Shown in pieces: positions 1,529 through 6,133 of a DNA stretch of 14,406 bases (positions within the stretch are counted from its first letter, which is position 1; every line of letters starts with the position of its first letter). Source of the stretch: Magnetococcales bacterium (GTDB lineage: Bacteria; Pseudomonadota; Magnetococcia; Magnetococcales; DC0425bin3); the NCBI GenBank assembly GCA_015229045.1, contig JADGCJ010000079.1, positions 1 through 14,406 on the forward strand, written 5' to 3'. The notes under the pieces were generated by a model. The model made no database searches and was not told the DNA's origin. It saw only the letters and a list, made by a program, of their open reading frames with translations. The position numbers were made by a program, and so were the translations under genes.

Positions 1529-1646
1529 TCCGAGGGAGTTGCAATATGCCACGAAGCCAAGCGGGTAGTATATTTTAAATCCTTTTCCTTTCAATATGTT
1601 ATCCTTTAGAAAGTAAAAAAGGAAAATGTTCTATACTTTGACTTTT
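1529..1646 (+). repeat. AT-rich repeat copy A, with extended left flank
   Basis: The AT-rich core lies at 1581-1646 and includes tcaatatgttatc, a run of A followed by GG, and ttctatactttgac. Homology with copy B extends left: the 16 bases tccgagggagttgcaa at 1529-1544 are identical to 2227-2242, and a gggta/tat block follows in both. The copy is diverged in the core, for example lacking the left TTGACT. It sits between the divergent trpB2 and RR1 genes. Confidence 0.8.
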
Positions 1647-1666
1647 CCTGTTTTGTTACTTTAAAT
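1638..1666 (+). promoter_or_regulatory. Predicted sigma70-type promoter for RR1
   Basis: TTGACT (1638-1643) and TTAAAT (1661-1666) are separated by exactly 17 bp, matching 5/6 and 4/6 of the consensus hexamers. The -35 box is the right-hand end of AT-rich repeat copy A. The 5' leader to the RR1 start at 1820 would be about 145 nt. I saw no strong structure in that leader. Confidence 0.45.
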
Positions 1667-1819
1667 CATGATGAACCATTGCGTCACCATAATGCAATTG
1701 GTATTTTCCGTTAAGGCGCACCGATTCCGGTAGAGAAATGATTGAAAATTTCCCCTCGACGGTGAACAATGGCGGGGCGTAGCGAGGGAAGTTTCACTCC
1801 TGCCTTCAAGGAAGAGGAC

Positions 1820-2218
1820 ATGCGCATTCTGGTCGCGGATGACGAACTCGACAATCGACTGCTTTTGGAGCGCATACTCGGTCCTCTCGGCCACTGCGAT
1901 TTCGTCGCCGACGGGCAGGAAGCCACGGAAGCCTTTCAGTTCGCGCTGGAGGAGGGCCACCCCTACCGTCTGGTCTGTCTCGATTTCCAAATGCCTGCCA
2001 TGAACGGACGCGAAGCCTTGCAATGCATGCGTGAGCAGGAGACGGAATTCGGTCTGACGTCGAATCAACTCTCTTCCATCTTTCTGGTTACCGGGTCGGA
2101 TCTGGGTGATTTGTCGGTGGAGGGTCTCTTTTCCCAGGGCTGTACCGATTTTCTGAGCAAGCCGGTTACCCGGCAGGAGATGCTGGACAAACTCCGAACC
2201 CATCACCTCGTGACCTGA
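1820..2218 (+). CDS. Single-domain response regulator (CheY-like), RR1
   Basis: A 132-residue stand-alone receiver domain. The Mg-binding acidic pair is D7/D8, the phospho-accepting aspartate D55 (CLDFQMP), the switch threonine T91 and the lysine K114 (SKP). There is no output domain, so it would act as a phosphorelay intermediate or through protein contacts. ATG 1820 is preceded by a strong AGGAAGAGG site. The in-frame ATG at 1769 has no ribosome binding site and would add 17 residues not found in receivers. It is a clear paralogue of RR2 (10017-10415): by eye 36 of the first 59 residues are identical and both are 132 residues long. The likely partner is HK1 downstream, although the 377-bp gap filled with repeats argues against a simple operon. 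The gene is flanked by direct copies A and B of the AT-rich repeat. Confidence 0.93.
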   Translation: MRILVADDELDNRLLLERILGPLGHCDFVADGQEATEAFQFALEEGHPYRLVCLDFQMPAMNGREALQCMREQETEFGLTSNQLSSIFLVTGSDLGDLSVEGLFSQGCTDFLSKPVTRQEMLDKLRTHHLVT

Positions 2219-2226
2219 TTCCGTCA

Positions 2227-2341
2227 TCCGAGGGAGTTGCAAAACTCCCGAGATCCTGTGGGTATATGTCTTTGATCTTTTGACTTTCAATATTTTATCT
2301 TTTAAGTATCAAAAAAAGGAAATGTTCTATCCTTTGACTTT
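2227..2341 (+). repeat. AT-rich repeat copy B, with extended left flank and small hairpin
   Basis: The core at 2278-2341 begins and ends with the same TTGACTTT motif and is one of the best preserved copies. The left flank (2227-2277) matches the flank of copy A. In this copy the flank forms a perfect 7-bp stem (gggagtt 2232-2238, loop gcaa, aactccc 2243-2249) just after the RR1 stop codon. Because no T-run follows directly, it is at best a weak terminator. Confidence 0.8.
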
Positions 2342-5500: not shown

Positions 5501-5760
5501 GGAGCCGTTTTCTGGAGGAGGGTGGTGCGCAGTTGGAGATGTTGCGGAAGGTGTTGGAGAATCGGGATCCCACGGCGGCTCGCAAGCTGGCGGAGGGATT
5601 GCAGGAGATGGCTGTCAAGGTGGGGGCGCAGCGGGTCAAGGTGCGAGCCATGTTTTTGGGGCGCAAGGCGGAGATGAAGATTTGGGACGAGGCTCAAAAT
5701 TTGTTTGCGGAGTTGCAAAACGAGTATGTCCAGGCGGTTGAGGCGATGAAGGGCGAATGA
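2596..5760 (+). CDS. Soluble multi-REC hybrid histidine kinase, HK1
   Basis: A cytoplasmic 1054-residue phosphorelay kinase with no membrane segment. Order: REC1 (1-118; E8/D9, D55, T81, K103), REC2 (124-245; D131/D132, D175, K227), coiled coil (about 248-275), PAS (about 272-395), HisKA with H423 in SHEIRTPMN, HATPase with N540, DTGIG 576-580 and GGTGLGL 605-611, a degenerate REC3 (671-790), REC4 (814-935; E820/D821, D865, T898, K920) and an HPt-like tail (about 960-1054). REC3 keeps D725 but has A677/T678 where the acidic pair belongs. In the tail E1000 occupies the place of the phosphorylatable histidine. The start has an AGAGGA site 5 nt upstream. Two N-terminal receivers suggest that input arrives from other kinases rather than directly from a ligand, though PAS could bind a small molecule. 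The core resembles HK2. The gene is bracketed by inverted repeat copies C and D. The partner is probably RR1. Confidence 0.95.
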   Translation: MASILLVEDSKSFASFLTKQIESRLNIQVELARTLAETKIIVGQSPERFFLSILDLNLPDAPNGEVVDFVRVRKIPSIVLTGEYKKELRDQIISRGVLDYFIKDNISVVDSVLFFVQRLVKNRQSHVLVVDDSRSFRSMLVGFLREYGFTVLEAADGEQALGILDAHPVRLVLTDYQMPNMDGFQLTKRIRAKFPRDHVAVIGLSSQGSTDLAAQFIKAGANDFLTKPFQNEELFCRVSQNIAIIESHEDLEQQVQERTRRLAETLERLKSRENYLQSILETALDGIVSTDAEGRVIHFNPAAERLFGFKKAQLLQQQISKIIIPEEYRERHCTGLQAYAALPAEQRPRLHRRIEYPGLRADGARIDLEIALTAAETEGNLFFTAFIHDVTERKQLVKSLEETLAVAESANRAKSEFLANMSHEIRTPMNAIIGMTDLVLSSELNDEQRENLEIVQRSSQSLLELINSILDLSKIEAGRLKLERIPFDLLGRMETACETLAVKAHQQDLELICQVHPDLPETLVGDPLRLNQVVINLLNNAIKFTKNGEITLSVSMEPAPEHPEEGQQQLRFSVRDTGIGIPVDRLAQVFERFTQVDGSTTRKFGGTGLGLTISRHLVEMMGGRIWVESEVGRGSVFHFTSSFPVGKRHKTDLQGSLEERSERPRETPLGGVRVLVATLNASLRAHLVDVVAYFGGEAQQAGDAATLTALLESAREKPFDVVVMDHVFVEGEGRLPEGFAAHPGWRRKGLLLLPASRRFEDLRPTIAFEEVAGLRKPPRRFQVLRMINKLLGRLPEEKAAEPVPAPSVVVANPLDILLVEDNENNQRLAITILERCGHRITVANNGREGLERLATMPFCDVIIMDLQMPEMGGYEATQQIRQNTGLGDKQQVHIIACTAHAYEAERQRCLDEGMNDFLRKPYRPQELLELLQPLMVRKAAARPAMVRTGPVKSPLVAVNDPPEVLAANRSRFLEEGGAQLEMLRKVLENRDPTAARKLAEGLQEMAVKVGAQRVKVRAMFLGRKAEMKIWDEAQNLFAELQNEYVQAVEAMKGE

Positions 5761-5763
5761 TTT

Positions 5764-5825
5764 CCTTTGACTTTTAATATTTATCTTTTAAAAATCAAAA
5801 AAAGAAAATGTTCTATCCTTTGACT
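5764..5825 (+). repeat. AT-rich repeat copy D
   Basis: Starts 3 bp after the HK1 stop codon (TGA 5758-5760) and runs from tcctttgactttt to ttctatcctttgact. It has the same orientation as A and B and the opposite orientation to E and F. The close abutment on the stop codon suggests insertion near the gene end or co-mobilisation with it. Confidence 0.8.
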
Positions 5826-6025
5826 CTGTCTTGTCTGTTGATTTTATATAATAAAAAATCAAAACGTCGAAGCCATTTTCACGGGCAATCCGCTCTTGTC
5901 TTCAGCCAATCAAACGGACGATTGGCTGAAGACAAGACCAATGGCGGGCTCGCTCTTGGGCCATCCTTTTCGGCAAAAGGCCGCCGAAAAGGATGGCCAT
6001 GAGCTGGGCGAGCCTGAAAGAATAG
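5826..6025. other. Structured spacer between inverted repeats D and E
   Basis: About 200 bp holding three stems. A weak AT stem pairs ttgatttt 5838-5845 with aaaatcaa 5855-5862. Hairpin 1 is a perfect 18-bp stem (5894-5911 with 5920-5937, loop aaacggac). Hairpin 2 is a perfect 16-bp stem (5959-5974 with 5983-5998, loop aaaaggcc), extended by an outer 7-bp stem (ggctcgc 5947-5953 with gcgagcc 6008-6014). Enclosed by repeats D and E, the whole could fold like a cloverleaf. There is no T-run, so these are not simple terminators. It could be a non-autonomous mobile element or a structured RNA. Confidence 0.7.
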
Positions 6026-6133
6026 AGGATAGAACATTTTCTTTTTTTGATACTTAAAGAAAAATATTGAACGTCAAAAAATAGAACATTTTCTTTTTTT
6101 GATACTTAAAGAAAAATATTGAACGTCAAAAAA
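6026..6133 (-). repeat. AT-rich repeat copies E and F, perfect 52-bp tandem
   Basis: Two inverted copies in direct tandem. Positions 6030-6081 and 6082-6133 are identical over 52 bp by my reading, both running from tagaacattttc to gtcaaaaaa. The identity implies a recent duplication or slippage. The period suits a family whose single copies start and end with the same TTTGAC motif. The pair ends just beyond the terminator of the SUMF1-like gene. Confidence 0.85.

Follow-up and report, generated by a model that had tools for sequence, protein, structure and literature searches.

The window analysed here, a whole stretch of 14,406 nucleotides from a Magnetococcales bacterium (contig JADGCJ010000079.1, positions 1 to 14,406), carries around its RR1-HK1 genes six copies of a 62-nt AT-rich repeat, referred to here as arm A. 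A search of the window with a six-copy nhmmer model recovers exactly these six copies, with no seventh at E 1e-3, and places them at 1581-1644, 2278-2340 and 5764-5826 on the plus strand and at 2497-2559, 6026-6079 and 6073-6131 on the minus strand. The 17-mer ATGTTCTATCCTTTGAC finds five matches in the window (at most three mismatches) against 0.01 expected, which excludes a chance resemblance and bears out the initial annotation in describing a repeat family. The G+C content is 27.7% at 1560-1660, compared with 58.6% window-wide. Copies 2 and 3 form an inverted pair with 96% identity, and copy 4 (5764-5826) forms a second head-to-head pair with the tandem copies 5 and 6 (6026-6131). The features, together with the other repeats (B, C, D and E) found beside and between the arms, are the following.

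1532..1580, plus strand: D segment, one end of the D-A-E element, starting with GAGGGAGTTGCAA (82% to the D seed)
1581..1645, plus strand: arm A copy 1, solo (nhmmer; no convincing partner within 350 bp)
1646..1701, plus strand: decayed E segment behind arm 1 (by eye against E copies; right edge uncertain)
2230..2276, plus strand: D segment before arm 2 (first 21 bp identical to the D seed, the remainder by eye)
2277..2341, plus strand: arm A copy 2, left arm of pair 1 (nhmmer and inverted-repeat match)
2342..2454, unstranded: spacer of pair 1, B-type repeat sequence (GTAACGATTCAG...; by eye against other B spacers)
2455..2496, minus strand: reversed E segment within the spacer of pair 1 (83% to the E seed)
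2497..2558, minus strand: arm A copy 3, right arm of pair 1 (nhmmer and inverted-repeat match)
5764..5826, plus strand: arm A copy 4, left arm of pair 2, starting 3 bp past the HK1 stop codon
5875..6024, plus strand: element C, a two-hairpin structured repeat in the spacer of pair 2 (alignment, covariation)
6026..6079, minus strand: arm A copy 5, right arm of pair 2 (nhmmer and tandem search)
6073..6131, minus strand: arm A copy 6, tandem right arm with a 52-bp step (nhmmer and tandem search)

The initial annotation had described the copies as lying outside genes and as sharing the motif TTTGACTTT at both ends. All six are clear of the eight Pfam-matched genes of the window, but mechanical open reading frames (ORFs) overlap some of them, and a weak gene call of the codon-model caller (2390-2557) also covers arm sequence. 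The terminal motif is present but not in every copy: the outer side of copy 1 reads CCTTTTCCTTT, that of copies 5 and 6 reads TTTGACGTT, and copy 5 lacks the inner TTTGAC. The proposal that the unit can grow in tandem over its common terminal motif is borne out by the exact period of 52 at 6029-6133, and a contig of a related genome (C153 of genome G001) holds three tandem copies with a 54-bp step at 2873, 2927 and 2981.

Outside the window, the arm is dispersed. Among genome contigs, a 24-mer of the arm is found in one stretch, on the Magnetococcales contig JADGAP010000044.1; the same 24-mer has no exact match in viral contigs, and arm 2 searched against plasmids and phages gives nothing at E 0.01. 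Across 48 genomes of the class, one (G015) has at least 29 arm matches, counted by scoring 19 of 341 first-look candidates, and G001 has 14 (13-15 over the different searches). Another 38 genomes have no arm match, and the remaining eight have short weak matches (E 2e-4 to 1e-2) which, with only 21-40 bases aligned, were treated as chance, so a strong match is absent in 46 of the 48. A survey set of 1.97 Mb, consisting of the window, two G001 contigs and stretches of G015, contains 207 arms, with 187 rows (185 distinct) in G015. Eighty of the G015 stretches (1.596 Mb, four pairs of which overlap by 2-4 kb) were picked by contig number. These hold 108 rows, or 106 distinct arms, with at least one arm in 40 of the 80; since hit-rich stretches fetched earlier were excluded, the arm density obtained from them is, if anything, low.

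The arm is thus a repeat family dispersed in Magnetococcales and independent of the RR1-HK1 genes, and its confinement to that locus, as initially described, holds only within the window. A local duplication near RR1-HK1 would be suggested by the window considered alone, and the initial annotation had made it depend on these being the only copies of the genome and on relatives lacking them; relatives do carry dispersed copies, in G015 and G001, which refutes this explanation and leaves it with practically no probability. The distribution across lineages is patchy: arm 2 of the window is up to 98% identical to G015 arms (97-98% for the best arms of the two), whereas the best-scoring class match of the window PALP-domain protein is found in another genome, G008 (78% identity), where no arm match was obtained. 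The G001 arms are restricted to two contigs, C253 and C153, which raises the suspicion of misbinning. A second GspE-like protein elsewhere in G001, with 64% identity to the contig copy, adds to this suspicion (GspE, like pal, nlpD, cpoB, queC, ccmH and prmC, is a name that we presume for the gene concerned).

The usual unit of this family is a pair of arms in a fixed order. Of the 78 neighbouring arms at most 400 bp apart, 73 are arranged plus-minus, four minus-minus and one plus-plus, while the minus-plus arrangement does not occur. The spacers of the 73 distinct pairs fall into two classes, 16-125 nt in 49 and 153-290 nt in 24. The short ones have a median G+C of 0.24, with values of 0.35 or less in 38 of 49, compared with 0.58 for the G015 stretches. 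The long ones, inspected by eye, contain the G+C-rich repeat B in 21 of 24, often with ends such as GTAACTATTCAG ... CTGAAYAGTTAC, element C in two (the window and G001), and neither in one (L048 4083). The initial annotation had seen the orientations correctly, but missed the head-to-head rule behind them; its interpretation is partly supported, having overlooked the inverted pair with its spacer as the usual unit and the presence of repeats B, D/E and C in the spacers.

Two pairs were folded and both give long hairpins, with -72.1 kcal/mol (z -16.4) and -113.8 kcal/mol (z -12.5) against shuffles. The consensus arm alone reaches -5.8 and -8.2 kcal/mol on its two strands, for shuffle means of -4.6 and -5.3. 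The two arms of a pair also share variants of their core. Across 67 G015 pairs and 29 variable columns, within-pair agreement is found in 48 pairs at column 21 (39.6 expected, P 0.0007) and in 47 at column 43 (33.7 expected, P 0.001), both surviving correction for 29 tests, and is nominal at columns 20 (P 0.007) and 33 (P 0.005). Overall identity within pairs is 0.802 versus 0.791, and 6 of 500 permutations reach 0.802. A polarity between left and right arms, suggested at first, was dropped (pooled null P 0.31).

The elements also favour certain positions relative to genes. Gene context was taken from the codon-model caller, in which a few doubtful small calls remain, and which supersedes an earlier crude caller (22 of 48 pairs convergent, 8 divergent). 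A total of 83 elements were considered (72 from G015, 8 from G001 and 3 from the window), of which 76 lie between two called genes: 27 in plus-plus, 20 in minus-minus, 25 in convergent and 4 in divergent arrangement. Among 792 element-free gaps, 70 are convergent and 96 divergent, giving P 4e-8 for the convergent excess at elements and P 0.09 for the divergent deficit. Of the 103 element ends that face the 3' end of a gene, 36 fall in the interval from -7 to +12 bp around the stop codon, compared with 3 of the 56 that face a 5' end. Some neighbouring ORFs end inside an arm, which supplies their last codons.

Two conserved operons carry the pair as additional DNA. The G015 pair behind pcm begins 5 bp past this gene, where the gap to the next ORF is 250 bp; in 19 of 27 measurable relatives, two more loci having ended too early to measure, the next ORF starts at -10 to +3 bp relative to the stop codon of pcm. 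Behind pal, the next ORF follows after 262 bp in G015, whereas 27 of 29 relatives have a gap of -20 to 79 bp. None of the 58 pcm and pal loci examined in relatives contains an arm. A further concentration is seen in G015 at L055 2735-6707 (contig C62), with four A pairs in 4 kb, so placed that almost every gene of a cluster of the pal-queC type (names by eye) is followed by one.

The 3' position keeps alive an explanation by function, according to which the pairs are bidirectional 3' elements, acting as terminators or mRNA-end hairpins under selection, with mobility past or secondary. The clustering of element ends near stop codons and the enrichment between convergent genes are what such elements would show, as are the hairpins of the two folded pairs, the agreement of core columns within pairs and the arm consensus kept between lineages. 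An intrinsic terminator has a G+C-rich stem followed by a T-run; none of the six terminator-like sites called at 1400-6300 falls on an arm, and shuffles give 6.4, although the scan demands G-C pairs and AT-rich stems would escape it. The explanation also sits poorly with the pairs behind pcm and pal, where most relatives have tightly spaced genes, with the lack of a strong arm match in 46 of 48 class genomes, and with arms that provide the last codons of neighbouring ORFs. On balance, this function appears quite unlikely as the reason for the pairs.

A second form of the arm is found as a single copy inside a larger element of 171-172 bp, composed of D (GAGGGAGTTGCAAAACTCCCG...), the arm, and E (...GTTTTGCAATTGGCTC). 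Its ends read GAGnnARTTGCAAAAC, which may be IS5-like. The two copies with both ends present, L062 2330-2500 and L181 9963-10134, are flanked by exact 4-bp target duplications (ATCC and AAGG); a third facing end pair, 1292 bp long and sharing its right end with one intact element, has none. Three of the four duplication bases match by eye in the L220 element, and no exact duplication is seen by eye in the decayed copies of the window (1532-1701) and L060. A strict E-type end occurs in one of the 48 class genomes, G015, five times. With terminal inverted repeats and a target duplication, the D-A-E form is a better fit to a miniature inverted-repeat transposable element (MITE) than the A pair, which has the inverted ends without the duplication.

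For this reason, another origin has to be considered, in which the arm is the inner part of a D-A-E MITE derived from an insertion sequence (IS), and the pairs are nested or inverted insertions that lost D and E. The duplications at L062 and L181 and the partial one at L220 argue for it, together with the closeness of the segments, since 22 of 26 D hits and 11 of 15 E hits lie within 200 bp of an arm. Against this, D or E is detectable inside or at most 60 bp away from only 17 of the 73 pairs, by eye neither the copy at window 1532-1701 nor that of L060 has an exact duplication, and no transposase with D-A-E ends was found: two transposase families, PF01797 and PF01609, were searched, and the single G015 gene of PF01609 lacks flanking D-A-E ends. 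A derivation of the pairs from this element is therefore rather unlikely.

In our view, the arms probably form the ends of a small mobile hairpin element that is non-autonomous and works in the manner of a REPIN, a doublet of repetitive extragenic palindromes (REPs), although this is held with some reserve. This reading draws on the dispersal of the arms, the plus-minus order of close neighbours, the hairpins of the two folded pairs, the core variants common to both arms of a pair, the concentration of element ends near stop codons and of elements between convergent genes, the additional DNA behind pcm and pal, and the 97-98% identity of the best arms of the window and G015. A 62-nt arm, a short spacer and the same arm inverted could, when single-stranded as DNA or RNA, fold into a single long hairpin. 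An enzyme supplied in trans would act on this hairpin and copy the whole pair together, without duplication of the target, and the pair would persist mainly behind genes, where the space may be tolerant. Solo arms may be remnants of pairs, or arms carried inside the separate 171-bp D-A-E element, and tandem arms could have arisen by slippage or recombination at the common TTTGAC ends.

Several observations speak against such a mobile pair. The inner-end columns 53, 56 and 57 show within-pair agreement nowhere in the 67 G015 pairs, and copying as a unit predicts agreement there too. Solo arms are frequent (45 of 179 in G015, with eight arms at stretch edges set aside) and barely weaker than the others, with a mean of 53.1 versus 56.8 bits (P 0.08). 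No convincing target duplication was found for the A pairs in 47 pairs and 2156 combinations of length (2-12) and boundary; the 15 top-ranked combinations give full matches only at length 2 (6 against 4.1 permuted), and the best z, 3.6, comes from partial matches with 30 permutations. The Y1 transposase family PF01797, to which the REP-associated tyrosine transposases (RAYTs) belong, has no match in G015, whose assembly may be incomplete, and the sole PF01609 gene of this genome adjoins neither an arm nor a D or E end (fewer than three substitutions). The comparison of operons has its own exceptions: the pcm gap is 27-292 bp in eight of the 27 relatives and the pal gap 185 or 211 bp in two of the 29, all without arms, and by eye the gene next to pcm differs among some relatives. 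An insertion between close strains has not been seen, the relatives compared being 50-69% identical in these proteins.

The closest known systems are the REPINs, described as inverted REP doublets with a spacer that form hairpins, lie outside genes, occur in tandem clusters and have been proposed to be moved in trans (PMC3116915). The A pairs resemble them in these structural traits, with 73 of 78 neighbours in the inverted order and singlets as possible remnants. They could then be REPINs proper, or REPs in bacterial interspersed mosaic elements (BIMEs), moved by a RAYT. Unlike the REPINs of the same source, the arms are 62 nt long, AT-rich and not palindromic, folding little above shuffle level on both strands, and the spacers are of 16-125 nt, or of 153-290 nt with other repeats inside. 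The lack of a PF01797 match in G015 largely refutes this assignment, unless the gene lies in an assembly gap, and makes it very improbable; the family has three matches in G001 and one in G008, and is present in 5 of 14 control genomes.

Bacterial MITEs, as described in a review (PMC10969869), are likewise small and intergenic, with inverted ends and a 3' bias; QMITE2 of Coxiella is reported there mainly from 3' untranslated regions. The A pairs differ from them in lacking a target duplication, and searches for PF01797 and PF01609 found no cognate transposase. The stem-loop families of Yersiniae, Bordetellae and Enterococci, named as new in PMC1590033, share the concentration 3' of genes and are set apart from the arm by host group, the comparison being one of descriptions only. 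Among the papers listed in literature searches, none was seen to deal with Magnetococcales repeats, which is weak evidence of absence with most subscription papers beyond reach, and Magnetococcales are not named in the consulted part of a REP survey (PMC12306157). The arm family is new and resembles REPINs or MITEs, but is filed as neither: its arm does not fold as a palindrome and G015 has no Y1 transposase match, and its pairs carry no target duplication.

If the pair is mobile, it would be a REPIN-like hairpin element in a genome apparently without the enzyme family thought to move REPINs, and would offer a second system in which to test how paired hairpin repeats spread. Clear predictions follow from the head-to-head rule and from the position at stop codons.

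The spacer of pair 2 holds the more surprising neighbour of the arm family. Element C (5875-6024) is a 150-nt repeat with two long hairpins, in which the loops and linkers are conserved and the matched stems change freely. It was aligned from 18 copies (the window, 16 from G015 and one from G001; one truncated copy of 19 was omitted). The alignment has 44 pairs, 25 of them with compensatory changes, and 96.5% of the cells pair. Shuffles reach 81.4% and slid versions no more than 49.3%, although the latter control favours the structure, which was taken from this very alignment. Changes on both sides affect 101 cells of the first long stem and changes on one side only affect four; G-U steps are few for an RNA, in our own judgement. 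A covariance model, with 64 candidates scored per genome, finds the element in at least 8 of 48 class genomes, including G001 and G015, G015 accounting for at least 37 rows, a figure that counts partial and reverse-strand ones too, G038, which may be Magnetococcus marinus MC-1, for at least 17, and each of the other six for at least 1-2. Rfam gives no match at the gathering score, with weak hits under every cut-off. This strong covariation and the lack of an Rfam match make the element worth a study of its own.

Arms lie within 250 bp on both sides of two of the 18 copies, on one side of nine and on neither side of seven. The third site of the window may nest two novelties: a new kind of mobile hairpin element with long arms, able to insert just past stop codons without duplicating its target and to carry cargo such as the HEC-01-type operon of L212 described below, and, in its spacer, a multi-hairpin element of several Magnetococcia lineages whose stems change in concert with hardly any G-U intermediates, as though the palindrome were kept or rewritten at the DNA level and not as an RNA. 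This double reading is possible but doubtful.

The one element C of G001 lies on the same contigs as its arms, C253 and C153 (L063 and L065). By eye, several copies are preceded by further matched palindromes. Those of G038 adjoin tandem repeats in L249, L256, L260 and L274, and five copies have equal bit scores.

Facing arms more than 400 bp apart are candidates for cargo carriage. Both arms are tight on the ends of flanking genes in one case only, L212 9180-11243 (G015 contig C8), where arms 1.9 kb apart enclose an AAA ATPase and a DUF4276 protein. The two proteins match HEC-01A and HEC-01B of PADLOC, a HEC-01-type defence operon. Elsewhere, L063 encloses type II secretion genes, and L101 and L209 enclose D-A-E or E pieces, so that carriage is not claimed. 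At L058 7561-8443 (G015 contig C100), a solo arm on one side and a pair on the other flank a PemK-like gene and its small partner, which scores below the Pfam cut-off.

The window also contains a G+C-rich inverted pair of B type by eye, at 9554-9613 and 9939-9998, with 77% complementarity. Between its arms lies another inverted pair, 9698-9728 and 9825-9855.

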